Both the position numbers and the translations under genes were made by a program. Source: Gammaproteobacteria bacterium (GTDB lineage: Bacteria > Pseudomonadota > Gammaproteobacteria > SZUA-140). From it: a stretch of 44,487 nt of DNA. The notes under the pieces are model-generated. The model was not told where the DNA came from and did not search any database. It saw only the letters and a program-made list of their open reading frames with translations. The DNA lies in the NCBI GenBank assembly GCA_003230085.1, contig QIGV01000042.1, forward strand, positions 1-44,487. The letters run 5' to 3'. Shown here piece by piece: positions 3,217 through 17,659 of the stretch (the stretch's first letter is position 1; every line of letters starts with the position of its first letter).

Positions 3217-6200
3217 ATGAATGACATAAAAAGACGCATTCAGTCGCTTCCTGCTGAAAAACTTAAGCTCATCAACAGAAGACTAAAGTTGCAGCAGAGA
3301 ATTTCTGATGGATATAACAATGCTATTCCGAAAAGAGCGAGTGCTACCAACCCTCCATTATCATTATCGCAGCGCCCATTATGGTTTTTCGATCAAATTG
3401 AACCCTGCAGTGCGGTCTATAATCGCTGTGCAAATTACCGGTTGCGGGGGGCACTCAATATAGAAGCGTTACAACAAGCACTGGTTGCGTTAGTGACTCA
3501 TCACGAAAGCCTGCGTACTACTTTCAAGATGGAAGGGAATGAACCGCTACAAGTTATCGTCCCGGAGCGGCAGGTGGAACTGCCGATATTGGATTTGAGC
3601 GACCAGGATATAGGTAATCGAAAGGCGGCATTACAACGTTTGACCAGCGAAGAGGCTCAGCGTCCCTTCACTCTGGCGCAGGGGCCACTGCTGAGAACTA
3701 CTCTATTAAAACTTGCCGAACGCGATCATATCCTGATGGTCACAATACATCACATCATCTCAGATGGTTGGTCAACAGGTATTTTCAATCGTGAACTAAG
3801 CCACCTCTATAACGGCATTAATCAGGGTCGTCCAGCCGAGTTGCCGGAGCTGCCGGTACAGTATGCTGATTACGCCCAATGGCAGCGGGAGTGGATGCAA
3901 GGAAAGGTTCTGGAAGGACAGCTGGACTATTGGAAAAAGCAGTTAGAGGGTGCCCCCTCCCTGTTGGAATTACCGACAGATCGACCACGGCCTGCGATTC
4001 GGACATTTCGAGGAAACCGACAGTCTATTATTTTTCCCAACGCACTTAGAGATGCACTGAAGGAATTGAGCGGACAAGAAGGGGCGACGCTTTTCATGAT
4101 CCTGTTGGGGGCTTTCCAGGTGTTGCTCCACCGTTACACAGGTCAGGAAGATATAGTGGTAGGTACGCCCATTGCCAATCGCAGGCACAGTGAGATCGAA
4201 GGATTGATCGGCCTTTTTATTAACGTGCTGGTATTGCGCAGTGATCTATCCGGCAATCCGACCTTCCGAGATCTAATTAAACGTGTTCGTGAGGTAGCGC
4301 TCGGCGCTTATGATCATCAGGATCTTCCGTTTGGAAAACTTGTCGAGGAGCTGCATCCAGGGCGAAATTTAAGCTATTCACCTTTATTTCAGATCATGTT
4401 TGCCTACCAAAATATCCCAAAGACAGGACTTAACATTGATGGCTTGGATGTAACGCATATAGAGACCAATAAGGGAACTGCACACTTTGATTTGTCCCTC
4501 ATCATGGAGAATGACGATCAGGGGCTAAAGGCTACGTTGGAATACAACACTGATCTTTTCGATACAGGCACAATGGTCAGGATGTTGGATCATTACAAAA
4601 TTCTACTTGAAGGTATAGTAGCCGATATAACGCAAAGCGTTTCTAAGTTACCGCTATTGAGTGAGGATGAACGTCATCAATTACTCGTCGAGTGGAACGA
4701 TACTCGGATGAATTTTTCTGAGCACCAGTGTATTCATGACTTAATTGCAGACCAAGTGATACGTACACCGCAGGCAGTAGCTGTAGTTTATAAAGATTTG
4801 GAAATCACCTATGCCGATCTTGAAGCGCGCGCTAACCAATTAGCCGACTATCTACGTGAAAGAGGGGTAGGCCCCGAAGTGCTGGTGGGGATTTGTGTTG
4901 AACGCTCTCTGGAAATGATTGTTGGTATTCTTGGTATTCTCAAAGCAGGTGGTGCCTATGTACCTTTAGATCCTTTCTATCCCAAAGAACGTTTGGCATA
5001 CATATTAAAAGATACCAAGACGAAAATATTACTCACACAAACAAAACTTTTGGAGTGTTTACCTGGACATTGTACGTCAGTTGTATGTTTGGACATTCCT
5101 TTGGATATTTCTTCTGTGCATGATCAAGACAATCACTCGACATGTTCAGGTCCAGACAATCTGAGTTATGTGATATATACATCTGGTTCAACCGGCAAAC
5201 CGAAAGGCGTGGAAATTACACATAAGGCATTGGTAAATTACGTGTCAGCAGCGGCAAGAACTTTCGGTTTAACACGGGATGATCGTGTTTTACAGTTTGC
5301 ACCGATTAGCTTCGATACTGCTGTGGAAGAAATATTTACAACCTTGGCGTATGGCGCCACCTTGGTTATCCGTTCTGATTCGATGTTGGATTCCATGCAA
5401 ATCTTCTTAGGGAGATGCCAGGAACAGGGAATAACCGTACTCGACCTTCCAACGGCCTTTTGGCATGAATTGACTACCGCATTATCCTCAGAAAAACTAA
5501 TATTACCTGATAATATACGAATAGTAATCATCGGAGGCGAACGGGTTTCTCCAGAGAAAATTGCATTATGGAAGGAGTGTGCGCCACAGAAAACACGGCT
5601 GATAAATGGATATGGCCCTACCGAGGCAACGGTAGCAGTAACAATGGCCGATTTGACTGAAGAAAAAAATAGCAAATTGCTGTGTAACAAATCAATAATT
5701 GGTCACCCTATCCAAAATACCCAAGTCTATGTATTGGATCCTTATCTAAATCCGGTACCTATAGGTGTTTTGGGCGAACTACACATTGGTGGAATGGGGC
5801 TTGCTCGTGGTTATCTGAACAAACCCGAACTAACTGTTGAACGGTTTATAGCAAATCCGTTTAATGATGATCCCCATGCACGTCTCTACAAAACAGGGGA
5901 TCTTGTACGCTGGTTACCTGATGGTAATATTGAATATCTGGGTCGGACTGATCATCAGGTCAAAATTCGCGGCTTCCGCATCGAATTAGGCGAGATTGAA
6001 GTGGTTCTTGAACAGCATTCAGAGATCAAGGATGTGGTGGTGATGGCGCGGGAGGATACCCCGGGCGATAAACGACTGGTAGCCTATCTCGTTTATCAGT
6101 CCGGTAGTCAAATCATTCCCAACGATCTGAGTAAATATCTGCACCATAACTTACCGGATTATATGATCCCAACACGTTATGTTGACCTCGAGGTATTGCC

Positions 6201-9200
6201 ATTAACACCCAACGGTAAGGTCGATCATAAAGCACTCCCAGTACCGGAAGTAACACCGCGTGAGCTTGACGAATGTTATGTTGTTCCAACTACCCCGCAG
6301 GAGGAGTTAATGGCTTTATTGTGGGCCAAAATCCTTGGTCTAAGCAAGGTAGGCGCCACCGATAATTTTTTTGAGATGGGCGGACATTCCCTGATGGCGA
6401 CGCGCTTAATGACCCATATCAGAGATAGTTTTGAAGTAGACATACCTTTGCGGCGCTTGTTCGAGAAACCTACTGTCAAAGCGTTAACCGAGGCAATAGA
6501 GCAGGATTACCAAGGTAAGGAGGAGCAGGAAACGGAGATTAACCCACTTCATCCGTTTCCTCGGCCTGCAAAATTACCCCTCTCATATGCCCAGAGTCGG
6601 CTATGGTTTTTGGATCAGCTGGAGACAGACAGTTCTTTTTACAATATCTTCAGTGGCTACCGGCTGCAGGGGCTTCTCAATATTCAAGCATTACAACAAG
6701 CGCTGGATACGTTAGTTGCCCGCCACGAAAGTCTGCGTACTATTTTCAGGGTGGAGGGGGATGGACCAGTACAAGTTATCGTCCCGGAACAGATGACGAA
6801 CCTACCGGTAGTTAACTTGATGGGCCAGGAAGCGAGTAACCGTCAGTTGGCATTGCAGTGTTTGGCCAAGGAAGAGGCTCAACGTCCCTTCGACCTGGCG
6901 CAGGGGCCATTGTTACGCACAACCTTAGTGCGCCTTGAAGAACACGAGCATGTTCTGATAGTTGTGATGCATCATATCATCTCGGACGGCTGGTCCATGG
7001 ATATCTTTGACCGGGAGTTGGACGAGTTGTACGACGCATATTGCCAGGGTCGCCCAGCTGAATTGCCGGAGCTGCCGGTACAGTATGCTGATTATTCCCA
7101 GTGGCAACGCAAGTGGTTGCAAGGTGATGTTCTGGAAAGGCAGCTCGGCTATTGGAAAAAACAGTTGGAGGGTGCCCCCCCGCTGTTAGAATTCCCGACT
7201 GATCGGCCGCGACCTGCGATTCAGACATTTTGTGGAGACCGCCAATCTATTGTTTTACCGCGAGTCCTGAGTGATGCTCTGAAGGAATTGAGTCGGCAGG
7301 AAGGGGTGACGCTGTTTATGACCCTGTTGGCTGCTTTCCAGGTGTTGCTCCACCGATACTCGGGCCAGAAAGATATTGTAGTAGGCACACCGATTGCCAA
7401 TCGCACACGGCCTGAAGTGGAAGGGTTGATCGGATTTTTTGTTAATACACTGGCGATGCGTACTAGCTTATTCGAGAATCTGACCTTCCGCGATTTAGTT
7501 AAACGTGTCCGTAATGTTGCACTAGGTGCCTATGCTCATCAAGATTTACCGTTTAATAAACTTGTCGAAGAGCTGCATCCTGAACGTAATTCAAAACATT
7601 CACCCTTATTTCAAGTGGTATTCACCCTGGAAAATAATTATTCAGAATCCATAGAACAATCAAGTTTAAGTAAAATATCATTAGAGACAGACAAAAAAAC
7701 AGCTAAGTTTGATATGACCCTATGCATGTTAGAACATAATGGGGGGCTTGAGGCTCTACTTGAGTTCAATACTGATCTTTTCGATGCAACTACCATCTCT
7801 AGGATGCTGGGCCACTACCAAGTCCTGTTGGAAGGTTTTACCTCAGATCCCAATCAATCCATTGATTCACTGCCGATGTTATCTGGGGCAGAGCATCATC
7901 AAATACTCGTTGAATGGAATGAAACCAGGACCGATTACCCCAAAGATAAATGTATTCACCAACTGTTTGAGCTTCAGGTTGAGCGATCACCAAACAATAT
8001 TGCAGTAGCGTATGAGAGCCAATTCCTGACATATCGTGAACTTAACGCCAGGGCCAATCAATTGGCACATTCTTTACGAGCGCACGGTGTAGTGTCGGGT
8101 ACACTCGTTGGCATCTGTATGGAACGTTCCTTAGAAATGGTTGTAGGTTTGCTTGGCATTCTCAAGGCAGGGGGAGCCTATGTCCCACTTGATCCTGATT
8201 ATCCCAAAGAACGTCTTGTTTTTATGTTGGATGAAACTCTGGCCCCTGTTTTAATTACCCAAAAAGCGCTTAAGGGTCAATTACCTAAACGTGATGCCCA
8301 TGTGATCTGTCTCGATGCTGATTGGGATAACATGAGCAAATACAATCAAAGTAATTTGATCAATTATAGTGCTCCTGAAGATCTTGCCTATGTTATCTAC
8401 ACCTCCGGATCAACAGGGAAGCCAAAGGGTGTCCCGGTGCCACATCGCGCAGTAAACCGTCTCGTTCTCAATACAAACTATATAACTCTCGGAGACAGGG
8501 ACAAGATTGCCCAGGTTTCTAATATCTCATTCGATGCGGCAACATTTGAAATCTGGGGCGCGCTGCTTAATGGTGCCCAATTGGTGGGTATTGAGCGGGA
8601 AGTGACATTATCACCCCGTGACCTTGCAAAATATATTGATGAGCATCAGATTACAGTGATATTTTTGACAACAGCTTTATTTAATCTGATTGCGCGCATG
8701 GAACCTGCCGCCTTACATTCAATGCGCTGCGTGCTTTTCGGAGGCGAGGAAGTTGACCAGAAATGGGTCAGGGTGGTAATTGAAAAAGGCCCCCCGGAAT
8801 TTCTGTTGCATGTTTACGGCCCCACTGAAAATACTACATTTACAAGCTGGTATCTGATAAATGAAGCCTCGAAAAATGCAAGGACTATTCCCATTGGCCG
8901 TCCTATATCAAATACTCAGATCTATCTATTGGATAAGCACATGAATCCTGTACCTGTTGGCGTTTGTGGGGAGCTATATACCGGTGGTTACGGGTTGGCG
9001 CGCGGATACCTTAATAGCCCGGAAATGACGGCTGAGAATTTTATTTCCAATCCCTTTAGCGATGACCCTGATCAACACCTTTACAGTACAGGTGACTTAG
9101 CCCGCTATTTGCCAGATGGTAATCTTGAATTCATTGGCCGTGTTGACTATCAAGTAAAAAATCGAGGATTTCGTATTGAACTGGGGGAGATTGAGTCAGT

Positions 9201-10608
9201 GCTTTCAAAGCATCCTCTCGTACTTGATGTTGTGGTGTTGCTCCGTGAGGATGGTGAGAATGATATTCAGGGAGACAAACGTCTTGTGGCTTACGTAGTG
9301 ACGTCACGGCAAGGTAATGTGAGTGCCACAGTGTTGCAAGGCTATTTAAAGGAAAGGCTGCCGGAATATATGGTGCCTGCCACATACATATTTCTTGTCC
9401 AATTTCCCCTTACGCCTAATGGGAAATTGGACACAAGGGCACTGCCGGAGCCCACAATTGAAAATACGGTATTCTCCACCATCAGGCGAGAGCCGCGTGA
9501 TTCCCTGGAACTCAGACTTGCACGTATCTGGGAGAATGTGCTAAACACCCGTGCCATAGGCATAGACGACAATTTCTTTGATCTGGGTGGTCATTCTTTG
9601 CTAGGCGTCCATTTATTGGAGGGAATAGAAAAACTATTTGGTAAACGTCTGCCGGTATCCACACTTTTCAGTGCACCTACCATCGCAGCTATGGCTCATC
9701 TCTTAAGAGATAAAGAGGAAAGTAAGCCCAGCCTCATCAGTGATAATGAGAAGATTTCACGCTGGAATTCCCTGGTGCCAATCCAACCACATGGCACATG
9801 CCCCCCTTTCTTTTGTGTCCATGGGCGGGCACATTCTCTGGCCAAATATATGGATATAAATCAACCATTATATTGGTTACATCATGGCCAGGATGCCAGC
9901 AGAACGACCTACCAAACCGTTGAAGATATTGCGGTGGATCATCTGAATGAAATAAAGTACATCCAACCAAATGGCCCTTATTTCCTGGGGGGATTTTCTT
10001 TTGGTGGCATGATTGCCTATGAGATCGCTCTGCAACTGTCCAGACAAGGTGATAAAGTGGCATTACTGGCACTTTTTGACCCGTCACCTCCACGTGTGGA
10101 TACGAGCATTGATCAACTTGTTGGCCAAGCGCTTAACAGATTTAAACAGGCCTCTCCAAAAAATATTCAATTGAAAAATTACATGTTTAAAGTGAAAAAC
10201 GGTTTGAATCTCAGATCCAGACGCTTGTTTTATCGTATCAGGGATAAATCCAGATATTTACTTTGCAAATATTACATTTTGAGAATGCAGTCAATCCCTG
10301 CTGTTCATACTGCTTTCCATCTTAAAGAAATTTTCAAGAAGGCTTCAGACAAGTATGTGTATCATAACTATACGGGCAAGATAATCGTTTTCGTACCAGA
10401 AAGTTATAAAAATCGAAAAAGACTAATAATTTCATTGCGACAACGCTGGAACAGTTTCACTAACGAGGATATTGAGTTCTTGTTTGTTAAGGGGGCGGTC
10501 ACCCATCACAATATAGTAGATGAACCATATGTTCAGAACCTAGTGAGCCAGCTTAATTCTCGCTTAAAGAAAATTTATGACCAAACTCCAACTACTGATA
10601 ACCGCTGA
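3217..10608 (+). CDS. Dimodular nonribosomal peptide synthetase, C-A-T-C-A-T-TE
   Basis: A 2463-residue synthetase. A short helical N-terminal segment (about 1-45) precedes C1 (HHIISDG at 178-184), A1 (about 505-1010; TSGSTGKPKG near 655-664, NGK near 1000), T1 (MGGHS, Ser1058), C2 (HHIISDG at 1252-1258), A2 (about 1579-2080; TSGSTGKPKG near 1729-1738), T2 (LGGHS, Ser2127) and a type I thioesterase (GFSFG, Ser2261; HHN near 2430). My manual alignment to GrsA gives specificity residues D-T-E-D-I-G-G-V-A-K for A1. The acidic pair suggests a basic or polar amino acid. A2 reads D-A-F-F-L-G-V-T-F-K, which fits isoleucine (or another branched residue). There is no epimerase, methylase or reductase domain. 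The first domain is a condensation domain, so the chain may start with an acyl group or an upstream peptide. Product: an (acyl-)dipeptide-type molecule released by the TE. No carrier-protein phosphopantetheinyl transferase or dedicated exporter gene is adjacent. Confidence 0.92.
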   Translation: MNDIKRRIQSLPAEKLKLINRRLKLQQRISDGYNNAIPKRASATNPPLSLSQRPLWFFDQIEPCSAVYNRCANYRLRGALNIEALQQALVALVTHHESLRTTFKMEGNEPLQVIVPERQVELPILDLSDQDIGNRKAALQRLTSEEAQRPFTLAQGPLLRTTLLKLAERDHILMVTIHHIISDGWSTGIFNRELSHLYNGINQGRPAELPELPVQYADYAQWQREWMQGKVLEGQLDYWKKQLEGAPSLLELPTDRPRPAIRTFRGNRQSIIFPNALRDALKELSGQEGATLFMILLGAFQVLLHRYTGQEDIVVGTPIANRRHSEIEGLIGLFINVLVLRSDLSGNPTFRDLIKRVREVALGAYDHQDLPFGKLVEELHPGRNLSYSPLFQIMFAYQNIPKTGLNIDGLDVTHIETNKGTAHFDLSLIMENDDQGLKATLEYNTDLFDTGTMVRMLDHYKILLEGIVADITQSVSKLPLLSEDERHQLLVEWNDTRMNFSEHQCIHDLIADQVIRTPQAVAVVYKDLEITYADLEARANQLADYLRERGVGPEVLVGICVERSLEMIVGILGILKAGGAYVPLDPFYPKERLAYILKDTKTKILLTQTKLLECLPGHCTSVVCLDIPLDISSVHDQDNHSTCSGPDNLSYVIYTSGSTGKPKGVEITHKALVNYVSAAARTFGLTRDDRVLQFAPISFDTAVEEIFTTLAYGATLVIRSDSMLDSMQIFLGRCQEQGITVLDLPTAFWHELTTALSSEKLILPDNIRIVIIGGERVSPEKIALWKECAPQKTRLINGYGPTEATVAVTMADLTEEKNSKLLCNKSIIGHPIQNTQVYVLDPYLNPVPIGVLGELHIGGMGLARGYLNKPELTVERFIANPFNDDPHARLYKTGDLVRWLPDGNIEYLGRTDHQVKIRGFRIELGEIEVVLEQHSEIKDVVVMAREDTPGDKRLVAYLVYQSGSQIIPNDLSKYLHHNLPDYMIPTRYVDLEVLPLTPNGKVDHKALPVPEVTPRELDECYVVPTTPQEELMALLWAKILGLSKVGATDNFFEMGGHSLMATRLMTHIRDSFEVDIPLRRLFEKPTVKALTEAIEQDYQGKEEQETEINPLHPFPRPAKLPLSYAQSRLWFLDQLETDSSFYNIFSGYRLQGLLNIQALQQALDTLVARHESLRTIFRVEGDGPVQVIVPEQMTNLPVVNLMGQEASNRQLALQCLAKEEAQRPFDLAQGPLLRTTLVRLEEHEHVLIVVMHHIISDGWSMDIFDRELDELYDAYCQGRPAELPELPVQYADYSQWQRKWLQGDVLERQLGYWKKQLEGAPPLLEFPTDRPRPAIQTFCGDRQSIVLPRVLSDALKELSRQEGVTLFMTLLAAFQVLLHRYSGQKDIVVGTPIANRTRPEVEGLIGFFVNTLAMRTSLFENLTFRDLVKRVRNVALGAYAHQDLPFNKLVEELHPERNSKHSPLFQVVFTLENNYSESIEQSSLSKISLETDKKTAKFDMTLCMLEHNGGLEALLEFNTDLFDATTISRMLGHYQVLLEGFTSDPNQSIDSLPMLSGAEHHQILVEWNETRTDYPKDKCIHQLFELQVERSPNNIAVAYESQFLTYRELNARANQLAHSLRAHGVVSGTLVGICMERSLEMVVGLLGILKAGGAYVPLDPDYPKERLVFMLDETLAPVLITQKALKGQLPKRDAHVICLDADWDNMSKYNQSNLINYSAPEDLAYVIYTSGSTGKPKGVPVPHRAVNRLVLNTNYITLGDRDKIAQVSNISFDAATFEIWGALLNGAQLVGIEREVTLSPRDLAKYIDEHQITVIFLTTALFNLIARMEPAALHSMRCVLFGGEEVDQKWVRVVIEKGPPEFLLHVYGPTENTTFTSWYLINEASKNARTIPIGRPISNTQIYLLDKHMNPVPVGVCGELYTGGYGLARGYLNSPEMTAENFISNPFSDDPDQHLYSTGDLARYLPDGNLEFIGRVDYQVKNRGFRIELGEIESVLSKHPLVLDVVVLLREDGENDIQGDKRLVAYVVTSRQGNVSATVLQGYLKERLPEYMVPATYIFLVQFPLTPNGKLDTRALPEPTIENTVFSTIRREPRDSLELRLARIWENVLNTRAIGIDDNFFDLGGHSLLGVHLLEGIEKLFGKRLPVSTLFSAPTIAAMAHLLRDKEESKPSLISDNEKISRWNSLVPIQPHGTCPPFFCVHGRAHSLAKYMDINQPLYWLHHGQDASRTTYQTVEDIAVDHLNEIKYIQPNGPYFLGGFSFGGMIAYEIALQLSRQGDKVALLALFDPSPPRVDTSIDQLVGQALNRFKQASPKNIQLKNYMFKVKNGLNLRSRRLFYRIRDKSRYLLCKYYILRMQSIPAVHTAFHLKEIFKKASDKYVYHNYTGKIIVFVPESYKNRKRLIISLRQRWNSFTNEDIEFLFVKGAVTHHNIVDEPYVQNLVSQLNSRLKKIYDQTPTTDNR
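3841..3872 (+). repeat. 32-bp identity between C1 and C2 coding regions
   Basis: Bases 3841-3872 are identical to 7063-7094, both encoding LPELPVQYADY in the condensation domains. Several neighbouring blocks (for example around the HHIISDG motifs) also match closely, while other parts of C1 and C2 have diverged. This points to module duplication or gene conversion. Confidence 0.75.
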
Positions 10609-10787: not shown

Positions 10788-11945
10788 TCAATCGCATGAT
10801 CTGGAATTAACCACTTCTAGCAGGCACTCAATGGCCCGGTCCAGTTGTGTGTGGATAGTATAAAAATGTGGTGAAAAGCGGATAGCACCAGCACGTAACG
10901 CGCAAATGACATTTTTTTGGAGTAACTTCTGATGCAAAGCTGCAGAGCTAATATTATTGTGCTGAAATGTCACAATCCCTGATAATCGCTCTGGCTGGGT
11001 GTTGGAAATGATTGTAATGTTATCTATTATTTCTAAATTATTAATTAGATAGGATGTATTATTGATGATACTTCTAGATATATTCACAATGCCGCACTCC
11101 AATAGCAGCGATAGACTGGCGCTCAATCCGTGTATGCCCAACATATTGGGACTGCCGCATTCATAACGTCGGGCGCTAGTGGCGATTTCCCACTCAAGCC
11201 GGTCATAGTCCCCTTGATGCTCCACCATATGCCAGCCATATTGACTGGGACGTAATCGGTGACGCACACCCTTGCGGACATAAAACACCGCGAGACCTTC
11301 TGGGCCCAATAGCCATTTATGTCCGTCAGCCACAACAAAATCGGCATTGATCGCCTGTACGTCAAGAGGAAAAGCACCTAGACTCTGGATGGCGTCAATG
11401 CAGAAAAGAAGCCCGTTTTCCTGGCAAAATTTCCCGATCTGCGCCAAGTCCATACGCAAACCCGTTGCATACTGCACGGAACTGATGGCGATCATTCTTG
11501 TGCGCTCGTCTACTAGAGCAAAAAGAGCATCCTCCGGAGATTCCGCACTTGAAAGATCGGCCTGACGTAGTGCGACGCCGCGTTCCTGCAGTGCTTCCCA
11601 GACAATCCGATTAGATGGGAATTCCTGATTAGTGCTGACAATATTATCTCCGGCATTCCAGTCCAGCCCACTGGCGATCATGGAAAGACCTTCGGAGGTA
11701 TTTTTCAGGAGGGCGATATCTTCGCTTGAAGGTGCATTCAGGAGTTGTTGCAGCTGTTTTCTGAGTGTTGATTCTACTGCAATCCAGTACTTGTAATTGA
11801 TAGGTCCCTGATAAACGTTTTCATCAGCGAAATCTTTTATCGCAGTTGCTGTTCGCGTAGGCCAGGGCGCCACACCGGCATGATTAAGATAAACAATGTG
11901 ACTCAATTGTGGAAATTCAGTTAAAATGAGGTCTTTAGATATCAT
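10788..11945 (-). CDS. Class V aminotransferase (cysteine desulfurase / isopenicillin-N-epimerase-like PLP enzyme)
   Basis: A 385-residue fold-type I PLP enzyme of the class V group. Visible marks are YLNHAGVAPWP at the N-terminus, the PLP-stacking/phosphate region around KNTSEGLS, the PLP-pyridine Asp in CIDAIQSLG, and the Schiff-base lysine in ADGHKWLLGPEG (about Lys210), followed later by YECGSPNMLG. Members act as desulfurases, transaminases, lyases or epimerases, and the sequence alone does not decide which. The gene is convergent with the peptide synthetase and divergent from the MOSC-MogA gene (about 130 bases between starts). A role in supplying or tailoring an amino acid for the synthetase is possible but unproven, as is a sulfur-transfer role linked to the molybdenum-cofactor genes. 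Confidence 0.8.
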   Translation of the reverse strand: MISKDLILTEFPQLSHIVYLNHAGVAPWPTRTATAIKDFADENVYQGPINYKYWIAVESTLRKQLQQLLNAPSSEDIALLKNTSEGLSMIASGLDWNAGDNIVSTNQEFPSNRIVWEALQERGVALRQADLSSAESPEDALFALVDERTRMIAISSVQYATGLRMDLAQIGKFCQENGLLFCIDAIQSLGAFPLDVQAINADFVVADGHKWLLGPEGLAVFYVRKGVRHRLRPSQYGWHMVEHQGDYDRLEWEIATSARRYECGSPNMLGIHGLSASLSLLLECGIVNISRSIINNTSYLINNLEIIDNITIISNTQPERLSGIVTFQHNNISSAALHQKLLQKNVICALRAGAIRFSPHFYTIHTQLDRAIECLLEVVNSRSCD

Positions 11946-12077: not shown

Positions 12078-13055
12078 ATGGTAACGGTAAAAAGTCTCAG
12101 CTTATCCCCTGGCAGAGGGAATCTAAAAAAATCTGTTGATTCTGCTAGCTTTAGATCTGGCTATGGGATTGTTGGAGACTCCCATGCGGGCGACTGGCAT
12201 CGCCAGATCAGTCTGCTTTCTGAATTCGATATCCAGGCGTTAGACCAAACTGTCACTCGCTCTGGAATATTTGCTGAAAACATAGTCATTACTAATCTGG
12301 ATTTCAGTACGATTGGTGTCGGAACCCGACTACAGTTGGGAGATGATGTCGTATTATCTATCACTCAGGCAGGCAAAGACCTTCATCCACATGCAAATCT
12401 CGTTCGAGTTTCCGGAGATCATATTATGGCGCGAACTGGGCTCTATGCACATGTCGAACACGGCGGTGAAGTCCATGCTGGTGACCATGTCAAGATAATT
12501 GATCTGGTGCCAAGAAATAAGTTTCAAGCAGTTGTATTGACCATCAGTGATCGATGTTCGCGTGGTGAAAATGTAGATACCGCAGGCCCCGCTGTAGAAA
12601 ATATGCTCTTGGAATCACTCAATGCCCGCATTTACCATGCAGAAATAATTCCGGATGTTAAGGCGCTTATATCGAAAAAGTTAATTCATTTCTGTGACGA
12701 TCACGCTATTGATTTACTCTTTACCGTGGGTGGTACAGGACCCGCTCCAAGAGATGTAACTCCGGAAGCGACCAGGGCAGTCGTAGAACGCTTTACGCCT
12801 GGTTTTGACGAAGCCATGCGATATGCGTCCTTGGAAAAAACAGCGACTGCAATACTCTCCAGAGGAGCCTCAGGTATTCGAGGGACAACATTTATTGTGA
12901 ATTTGCCAGGGTCGGAGAGGGCTGCAGTTGAAAACCTCGAGGCTATCATACAGGCTCTACCCCATGGCATTAGAATACTGCGGGGTCATCCTGCAGGTTG
13001 CGGCTGTTGTAGTGCAAAGCCAACGGCTCAAAAAACCGTAACCCAGGCAAGCTAG
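12078..13055 (+). CDS. MOSC-MogA/MoaB fusion, molybdenum cofactor protein
   Basis: A 325-residue two-domain protein. Residues ~1-145 are a MOSC domain (GDSHAGDWHRQISLLSE; GDHIMARTGLYAHV). Residues ~150-310 are a MogA/MoaB molybdopterin-adenylating domain (LTISDRCSRGENVDTAGP, TVGGTGPAPRDVTPEAT, NLPGSERAAVENL). A Cys-rich tail (GCGCC) ends the protein. MogA-type domains adenylylate molybdopterin before metal insertion, and MOSC domains handle sulfur or bind cofactor. At the segment where many MOSC proteins have KECHSRC, this protein reads KDLHPHA, and the nearby GDC is GDH, so the usual cysteines are absent. A GAGAGG ribosome site precedes the ATG. It sits 54 bases upstream of mobA, probably in one transcript. 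Confidence 0.85.
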   Translation: MVTVKSLSLSPGRGNLKKSVDSASFRSGYGIVGDSHAGDWHRQISLLSEFDIQALDQTVTRSGIFAENIVITNLDFSTIGVGTRLQLGDDVVLSITQAGKDLHPHANLVRVSGDHIMARTGLYAHVEHGGEVHAGDHVKIIDLVPRNKFQAVVLTISDRCSRGENVDTAGPAVENMLLESLNARIYHAEIIPDVKALISKKLIHFCDDHAIDLLFTVGGTGPAPRDVTPEATRAVVERFTPGFDEAMRYASLEKTATAILSRGASGIRGTTFIVNLPGSERAAVENLEAIIQALPHGIRILRGHPAGCGCCSAKPTAQKTVTQAS

Positions 13056-13727: not shown

Positions 13728-14105
13728 ATTCAAGCTTGCAATACGGCTGAACAGGAACCAGCTTTTCTAATGCCAATTAAGGTTTATCGAAACGTTGCAG
13801 TAAAAAGTATTACTTAATCAATATGAAACACATTTAAACAAACCTATTAGGTTAGCTAATAATACACGCCACATTAGTATGGAGAAGCCATGGTTATTCG
13901 GAATTTTCTTCTTTATTTTATAAGAGATTCCTCTTTAGGTTTAAAAATAGTGTGAAATTTCAGATTACAATTCGATAACCGTGGACTTTAGGGGAAAGGG
14001 CTTTTATTCTTCCTCTACTCGGAACATCATATCTTCAAAGATTCATCCCTCGATAATATTGTGTTCTCAGTACCTTATTTAGCCTAGCCTATGGAGGAAA
14101 GCAAA
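13728..14105. other. 378-bp AT-rich gap before the monohaem cytochrome
   Basis: No open frame of convincing length, RNA gene or terminator was recognised. A GGAGGAAAG ribosome site at its right end belongs to the next gene. A promoter for that gene must lie here, but I cannot pick a convincing -35/-10 pair. Confidence 0.5.
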
Positions 14106-14627
14106 ATGAAAAATATATGGATATTAGCCAGTTTATTTATTGCTTTTAATGTTAATGCAGCGGCCAAGCCAGAGCACGACCCTACTGCACCCCGAGTGCC
14201 GCCAGATAAAATCGACGAAGCCAAAGCCATGAAGTCTCCGGTTCCCGCTACGCCGGAAAATATCGCGGCAGGAAAGAAGCTGTTTACCGGCAGTTCAACC
14301 TGCTGGACCTGTCATGGAAAAGAAGGAAAGGGTGATGGCCCCGTGGGTCTCACCACTGCAGTAGGCCCGAGAAATTTTACCAGTGCAGAATTTCATGATG
14401 CACGGACCTGCGGCGAAATGTTCTGGGTTGCTTCCAACGGTACCCAGGGAGATTTTTCCAAGGCAGGTGCGCCAAGTCATCCCGATGGTTCGGGAATGGT
14501 GGCCTACCTAAAGGGTCATGAGTCTGAGCTGGGACTGAAAACCACCCCCTCGGTTGCGAGCGCGGAAGATCTCTGGAAGATCGTGCTCTTCGAAAGGAGC
14601 CTGGGAGGAGAGGTTAACTGCGAGTAA
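14106..14627 (+). CDS. Periplasmic monohaem c-type cytochrome
   Basis: A 173-residue protein from the ATG with a GGAGGAAAG site just upstream; an in-frame ATG at 14091 would swallow that site and is rejected. A signal peptide (MKNIWILASLFIAFNVNAAA) is followed by an Ala/Pro-rich stretch and one haem motif CWTCH (residues 66-70). Downstream, GTQGDFSKAGAPSHPDGSGM contains a candidate axial methionine. Two extra cysteines (ARTCGE and the C-terminal NCE) could form a disulfide. It is likely a small periplasmic electron carrier. It is monocistronic here and faces the mer operon tail-to-tail. Confidence 0.85.
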   Translation: MKNIWILASLFIAFNVNAAAKPEHDPTAPRVPPDKIDEAKAMKSPVPATPENIAAGKKLFTGSSTCWTCHGKEGKGDGPVGLTTAVGPRNFTSAEFHDARTCGEMFWVASNGTQGDFSKAGAPSHPDGSGMVAYLKGHESELGLKTTPSVASAEDLWKIVLFERSLGGEVNCE

Positions 14628-15228: not shown

Positions 15229-15591
15229 TTAGTTGCCGGTTTCACAAGCCGGTGGACTTTTACGTAGTAAAACTATATCCCATATGGCAGCTGCAATCAC
15301 GGCAACCAGGCCGATGATATGTACCGGCATGAACACCAATATCCCGACAAACGCTGCAACAGCGCCGACTGATCCCAGATAGAAGGGACCATTGACGCCG
15401 TGACGAGTACGTGAACCTTTCAGTCCCCATACTGCGATCAGCAGAAAAATCGCCAGCAGTGGGATCAGGATGGCGTCATTGATGATAAACCCCAATCCGG
15501 CCGCAGAGAGTGCGGCAAGTACCGGGGCGACGCCCAGACAGCATACGCTTGCGAAAATAGAACCCAAAGATCCGGTGATTTGCTTGAACAT
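15229..15591 (-). CDS. merC: MerC-like inner-membrane mercury transporter
   Basis: A 120-residue membrane protein with four predicted helices (about residues 10-32, 40-58, 70-88, 90-108). A vicinal pair Cys17-Cys18 (ASVCCLG) lies in the first helix, matching MerC/MerT/MerF-type Hg(II) importers. A further Cys116 is near the C-terminus. It would move Hg(II) inward to cytoplasmic MerA. A near-perfect AGGAGG lies upstream of the ATG, 28 bases after merA. The family label MerC rests on helix count and cysteine placement; a divergent MerF/MerT relative remains possible. Confidence 0.7.
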   Translation of the reverse strand: MFKQITGSLGSIFASVCCLGVAPVLAALSAAGLGFIINDAILIPLLAIFLLIAVWGLKGSRTRHGVNGPFYLGSVGAVAAFVGILVFMPVHIIGLVAVIAAAIWDIVLLRKSPPACETGN

Positions 15592-15619
15592 ATTATTCCT
15601 CCTGGTAATTCACTAACAA

Positions 15620-17035
<1,416 letters not shown>

Positions 17036-17047
17036 CTATAATTAATT

Positions 17048-17659
17048 TTATAGTACAGCGGCATAGCGAACCGCGTTCACCTGCCTACCTATTTCGAAGG
17101 CATCCTCAAGCGTCAGTAGAAAGGTTCCTTCATGTTGTGACGTCCATTCCTCGCCAGCTTCATAGCAGCGAAAGAAATTGACATAATGACAAAATTGACT
17201 GGCAACGTTTTCATTTATCTTCGCTGCATCTGGTATCAAAAAAGAGATAACGATAGGCTCTGCTCCAGTTGATTGAGCGCCCTCAAGTGACACCGAAAGC
17301 TGAATGGGCCTGGCAGTGGTTGCGCAGGTTGAGGCGACTTGTGCCGTACTGCCTACTAGTTCAGGAATGAATAGGGCATCCCACGCACACCAGGCGTAAC
17401 TCTTTATTCCATCCATCACCATACAGTGGTGCGTACATTAGGAAATATTACCTAACTGATTGAGTAGCTGTTTAGCCTGTTCAATTGGCAGCGCCAGATC
17501 TTGAGCCAGAGACTCAACCGGGGATGGCTCACCCTTAGCCAGGTGCTGATAAATCTTGCGCGCCAGCCGCTGCGCCGTGATATCCATTTTCGGGAAGGCA
17601 TCCACGAAAATGTGGCTCAAGCTGTCCAGGCCATGTTCCACTGCATTTTGCGGGATCAT
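17048..17659 (-). pseudogene. merB: Organomercurial lyase (merB) interrupted by an in-frame stop
   Basis: Two frames in the same register make up one MerB. Bases 17438-17659 encode the N-terminal winged-helix part (73 residues, ending LLNQLGNIS) and 17048-17422 the catalytic domain (124 residues). A TAA at 17440-17438 plus five sense codons separate them. MerB cleaves the carbon-mercury bond using C96, D99 and C159 (R831b numbering); matching residues are present in YAWCAWD and QFCHYVNFF. Compared by eye with R831b MerB, about 15 residues around the stop are also missing. It could be a recent pseudogene, a sequencing error, or two separate polypeptides with restart at the ATG at 17422. The intact catalytic residues argue for recent loss or split function rather than long decay. 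Confidence 0.8.

Follow-up and report, generated by a model that had tools for sequence, protein, structure and literature searches.

A two-module NRPS of a gammaproteobacterium as a putative trans-fed terminal subunit of a split assembly line

Results

The NRPS gene and its surroundings

The window analysed here, i.e. the whole stretch of 44,487 nucleotides of contig QIGV01000042.1 of a gammaproteobacterial genome (hereafter G000), carries a two-module NRPS gene at positions 3217..10608 of the forward strand, which encodes a protein of 2463 aa with the domain order C-A-T-C-A-T-TE. The first-pass annotation had described a single gene of exactly this extent and order; the open reading frame agrees to the base, and the order is borne out by Pfam and by genome search. 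In the protein, Pfam reports two stretches each of Condensation (E 1.1e-242), AMP-binding, AMP-binding_C and PP-binding, and a single Thioesterase match at residues 2224-2294. All on the forward strand, the first condensation domain (C1) spans 3352..4686, the core of the first adenylation domain (A1) 4750..5817, the first carrier domain (T1) 6319..6498, the second condensation domain (C2, of the LCL type and 63% identical to C1) 6571..7908, the core of A2 7966..9012, the second carrier domain (T2) 9514..9705 and the type I thioesterase (TE) 9706..10605; the C, A and T domains were located by genome search. Ahead of C1 lies a helix-like N-terminal segment, IKRRIQSLPAEKLKLINRRLKL (3226..3291, forward strand), which is a candidate acceptor docking element by its PSSM score. 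The translation retains HHIISDG in C1 and C2, GGHSL in T1 and T2, the NGK lysine in A1 and A2 and GFSFGG in the TE, so that none of the domains looks degenerate, and the A, C and TE domains are predicted to be active from their intact motifs. By its order of C, A and T modules followed by a TE, the protein is a type I modular NRPS, a genuine enzyme of a known kind and, as a dipeptide-type NRPS, an ordinary one.

The assembly of G000 comprises 2.9 Mb in 241 contigs and is about 81% complete. It holds three C domains in total, two in the window NRPS and one on another contig (C3), and the genome search found no further C domain in the window. Such domains are rare in the GTDB family, where any C domain was found in four of 20 genomes. 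No synthetase partner adjoins the gene, which is preceded by a gene that joins a multiheme cytochrome to a thioredoxin-like domain (742-2577, forward) and by queD (2617-2979, reverse) and followed by a class V aminotransferase (10788-11945, reverse), with molybdopterin and mercury genes as further neighbours; none of these serves tailoring or export from what would clearly be one operon with the NRPS. Good homologues of the aminotransferase occur across most of the family, in genomes with an NRPS as well as in those lacking one, and the neighbourhood thus gives no link to the NRPS. As to the neighbours themselves, the best model for the 742-2577 protein is the ExtKL (seleno)protein, at a score far under that model's cut-off; the frame at 12078-13055 fuses a MOSC domain to a MoaB/MogA-like domain and is followed by a MobA-like gene; a small cytochrome at 14091-14627 reaches 110 bits with the cytochrome 579 model, below its cut-off of 280; and the mercury genes at 15229-17422 comprise a merC-like gene, a mercuric-reductase-like flavoprotein and MerB.

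Predicted substrates of the two modules

The specificity codes were re-read from the translation against the motifs of GrsA PheA, and both codes previously read by hand, DTEDIGGVAK for A1 and DAFFLGVTFK for A2, were reproduced. The code of A2 is identical over all ten residues to those of OciB-A5 and OciC-A7 from two Planktothrix strains, which incorporate Ile and sometimes Val according to PMC2533009; A2 is accordingly predicted to select Ile, with Val possible. These cyanopeptolin domains, despite the shared code, belong to an assembly line for a seven-residue cyclic depsipeptide. For A1, literature searches for similar codes found no exact match. Eight of its ten positions coincide with the ApnA A1 variant DVEDIGGVEK, reported in PMC5311044 for strains that incorporate Arg and Lys, and two (236 and 331) differ. 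The closest solved match to its pocket region is ApnA A1 itself (4d4g, 205 bits), with which it shares Glu at position 239, and which, according to PMC11253843, takes Arg and Tyr and orients the substrate by E204 and S243; ApnA A1 comes from another pathway in another organism. Lysine codes given in other papers are DAESIGSV over eight positions in BacB (PMC3207962) and D T E Q I G S I I in AptA (PMC9564503). Given the nearby Arg/Lys variant, the closest solved relative and these Lys codes, A1 is best read as selecting a basic residue, Arg/Lys. The order "basic, then Ile" proposed in the first-pass annotation thus holds, including its Ile-like reading of A2, and the A1 specificity that it had called unclear is narrowed to Arg/Lys on an unchanged code.

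Type of the first condensation domain

It had been suggested that a leading C domain with no upstream synthetase points to N-acylation, i.e. that C1 might be of the starter type, and a phylogeny of C1 had been proposed as a check. A first, quick tree of 67 collected sequences contained long branches; the second was built from 41 of the 67, the remainder, including the long-branch rows, being removed by name prefix. In this 41-row tree C1 belongs to an LCL clade of 28 rows (100/99), the five C domains of the source genus form one clade (100/99), and three starter domains form a group of their own (100/100); a tree that holds C1 together with the three starters was rejected (p-AU 0.0017). The ranking against solved chains agrees with this placement, if the 7c1 entries, 4jn3 of CDA, EntF and ObiF1 are starter-type domains, as we assume them to be: C1 scores 387 bits with Txo2 and 374 with Txo1, but only 75 with 7c1k (the best of the 7c1 entries), 57 with CDA (4jn3) and 47 with EntF, whereas a Mycetohabitans starter domain (L038) shows the opposite order, with 801 bits for 7c1h, 218 for ObiF1, 216 for CDA and 79 for Txo2. 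After motif C4, C1 has LPTDRPRP, which is close to the LPxDxxRP motif described as typical of LCL domains by Rausch et al. (PMC1894796). Starter domains such as the RzmA-like L038, CDA (4jn3) and ObiF1 (6n8e) resemble C1 in having the condensation fold and in being the first domain of the protein, but they make up a separate clade from which C1 is excluded. By its clustering with elongation domains, its HHxxxDG motif and its LPxDxxRP-like motif, C1 is classified from sequence as an LCL-type domain, which is the first of the two outcomes that the first-pass annotation named as refuting its proposal, and N-acylation by a starter domain is not supported. The product may nevertheless carry a small acyl cap, since an A domain on contig C3 resembles oxalate-CoA ligase.

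Candidate partners elsewhere in the genome

For the second of these outcomes, an upstream module elsewhere in the genome, there is a candidate only, namely the A-T didomain of contig C3, whose tail resembles that of a donor. It belongs to a cluster (L001 1739-13100) that also encodes a protein of the ICL/PEPM superfamily, a C-A-T-TE NRPS, a ThDP enzyme with an NRPS-type N-terminal helix and a PPTase, and has a conserved counterpart (L034 1957-15794, contig C44) in a second genome of the same genus, G001; sulfotransferases and glycosyltransferases lie close by. The A-T is nearest to oxalate-CoA ligase (443 bits to 5ie0, with motifs shared in the alignment) and probably activates an oxalate-like carboxylate, the ThDP enzyme is nearest to 2-hydroxyacyl-CoA lyase/oxalyl-CoA decarboxylase (327 bits), and the PEP mutase/isocitrate lyase-superfamily protein has an RRCGH motif and is nearest to petal death protein (127 bits). 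Every score of the NCBIfam models for the ThDP enzyme and the lyase lay below cut-off. A phosphonate cluster, as the Pfam PEP_mutase match might suggest, was rejected, because TIGR02320, whose cut-off is 319.55, gives 68 bits, and it is countered also by the RRCGH motif and by the ThDP enzyme ranking with oxalyl-CoA decarboxylase and acetolactate synthase. Among 229 sampled genomes of the class, a strong match to the A-T was found in four, G000 included, and inspection of the three others revealed neither a ThDP enzyme nor a lyase or NRPS next to it. The closest sampled homologues (G144 and G100, 57-60% identity) are stand-alone ligases in open frames of 517-524 aa with no partner genes, which leaves oxalate a probable rather than a proven substrate of the A-T. 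The counterpart in G001 is adjoined by an AbiEi/AbiEii-type toxin-antitoxin pair (L034 16940-18789).

Docking elements were sought with profiles built by eye, in choice and alignment, from segments of other organisms (13 acceptors and 10 donors), whose jackknife scores (-3.8 to 38.7 for acceptors, 2.2 to 26.8 for donors) mark them as loose, and which were run over 174 ORFs from loci making up part of G000 and G001. The six highest acceptor scores belong to four NRPSs and both ThDP enzymes; with these loose, by-eye profiles the window NRPS ranks sixth of the 174 at 14.4, only 1.6 bits ahead of the next score, which is a chance match (12.8). The best donor tails are those of the two A-Ts (25.1 and 24.7), followed by a score of 7.5. 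In both genomes the A-T is the only protein found to end in a T domain with an acidic docking-like tail, a genome-wide statement that rests on the search for PP-binding and not on the profile scan, and G001, which is 90% complete, has one A-T, two C-A-T-TE genes and no further NRPS loading module. Two other carrier-associated proteins were set aside as donors for not being T-terminal loading modules with such a tail: an A-T-hydrolase on contig C184, which is cut by the contig end, and an acyl ligase with an ACP on contig C24 of G001. A carrier-bearing A-T-hydrolase protein cut by a contig end is found at L044 2075-4168.

Among reference loci outside the source genus, counted by eye, 22 of 26 NRPS proteins headed by an LCL domain have a T-bearing ORF no more than 1.8 kb upstream, which points to feeding in trans as the rule for such proteins. 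G001 encodes a single-module NRPS, C-A(Ile)-T-TE (L035 8977-13074), located between radA and a dapE-like peptidase gene. Its C domain shares 74% identity with C1, and its A domain, with the same Ile code by reading, 58% with A2. With only one A domain behind an LCL-type C domain, this enzyme could make no peptide by itself, which argues that domains of the C1 type take their donor in trans.

Discussion

We tentatively regard the window NRPS as the chain-terminating subunit of a split assembly line that is fed in trans, perhaps by the A-T of contig C3, and that makes X-(Arg/Lys)-Ile; as a whole we would place this reading somewhat below an even chance. The product is most likely X-(Arg/Lys)-Ile, its X supplied in trans, and the C3 A-T is our best single guess for the source of X. 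According to this scheme the A-T would load a small, oxalate-like carboxylate, and the acceptor-tagged ThDP enzyme of the neighbouring gene may change this unit before transfer, e.g. from oxalyl to formyl; C1 would then accept the carrier-bound X in trans and join it to the basic residue (Arg/Lys) on A1-T1, C2 would couple X-(Arg/Lys) to T2-bound Ile, and X-(Arg/Lys)-Ile would be released by the TE. The domain order, the intact motifs, the codes, the type of C1, the genome inventory and the homologies of the C3 enzymes are read directly from the data, whereas feeding in trans, the nature of X and release as a free acid are our inference. Docking in trans is weakened by the acceptor score of the window protein, just above a chance match in by-eye profiles, and the assignment of the C3 A-T as donor by its location on a different contig, by the cognate C-A-T-TE that already adjoins it and by the incompleteness of G000, from which the true partner may be missing.

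A more specific version, which we consider unlikely, albeit worth stating, is that one oxalate-loading, carrier-bound A-T and a ThDP oxalyl-thioester decarboxylase/ligase recruited by a docking helix cap two terminal synthetases in the same cell with an oxalyl, formyl or related C1/C2 unit, yielding an X-amino acid and X-(Arg/Lys)-Ile. If loading in trans is true, it would imply a carrier-bound oxalate starter pathway in which a relative of oxalyl-CoA decarboxylase acts on a carrier protein; no report of a carrier-bound oxalyl pathway was found in the CC-licensed papers searched.

The alternative that fares best keeps the trans-fed terminal subunit and replaces the C3 A-T by another module or carrier that was lost from the assembly. 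The fragmentation of G000 into so many contigs at its level of completeness, and the C-A-T-TE adjacent to the A-T, speak for it, but the more complete G001 has the same inventory and no further NRPS loading module, and we think a lost donor improbable. Lower still we rate the N-acyl-(Arg/Lys)-Ile of the first-pass annotation, made with C1 as a starter on acyl-CoA or acyl-ACP: it would suit a gene with a C domain in first place and no partner next to it, but both the tree and the ranking against solved starters make C1 an LCL domain, its LPTDRPRP is near the LCL motif of PMC1894796, and those window proteins that were scanned gave no AMP-ligase match apart from the NRPS. The least probable reading leaves C1 unused, the enzyme making free (Arg/Lys)-Ile or its diketopiperazine, for which two complete modules and a TE would suffice, but C1 retains HHIISDG and has its 74% identical counterpart in the sister gene, whose lone module would, on this reading, yield no product.

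Whatever the donor, the window gene and the single-module gene of G001 form a clean pair for studying module gain in NRPSs. They are alike in their C domains and Ile codes and at the DNA level, where identity sets in 8 bases ahead of the start codon (75.6% over 1482 bases) and returns in C2-A2 (67.9% over 1994 bases), and differ in that the G001 gene has one module, a distinct radA/dapE-like setting and a TE only 34% identical. The T2 and TE of the window are nearest to the NRPS of contig C3 (58.8% and 49.1%, against 39.7% and 33.8% for the single-module gene), with T2 equally close to the counterpart in L034. From these mosaic identities, the window gene looks like a gene of the single-module type that has gained an inserted A1-T1-C2 block and a T-TE end of the C3 type.
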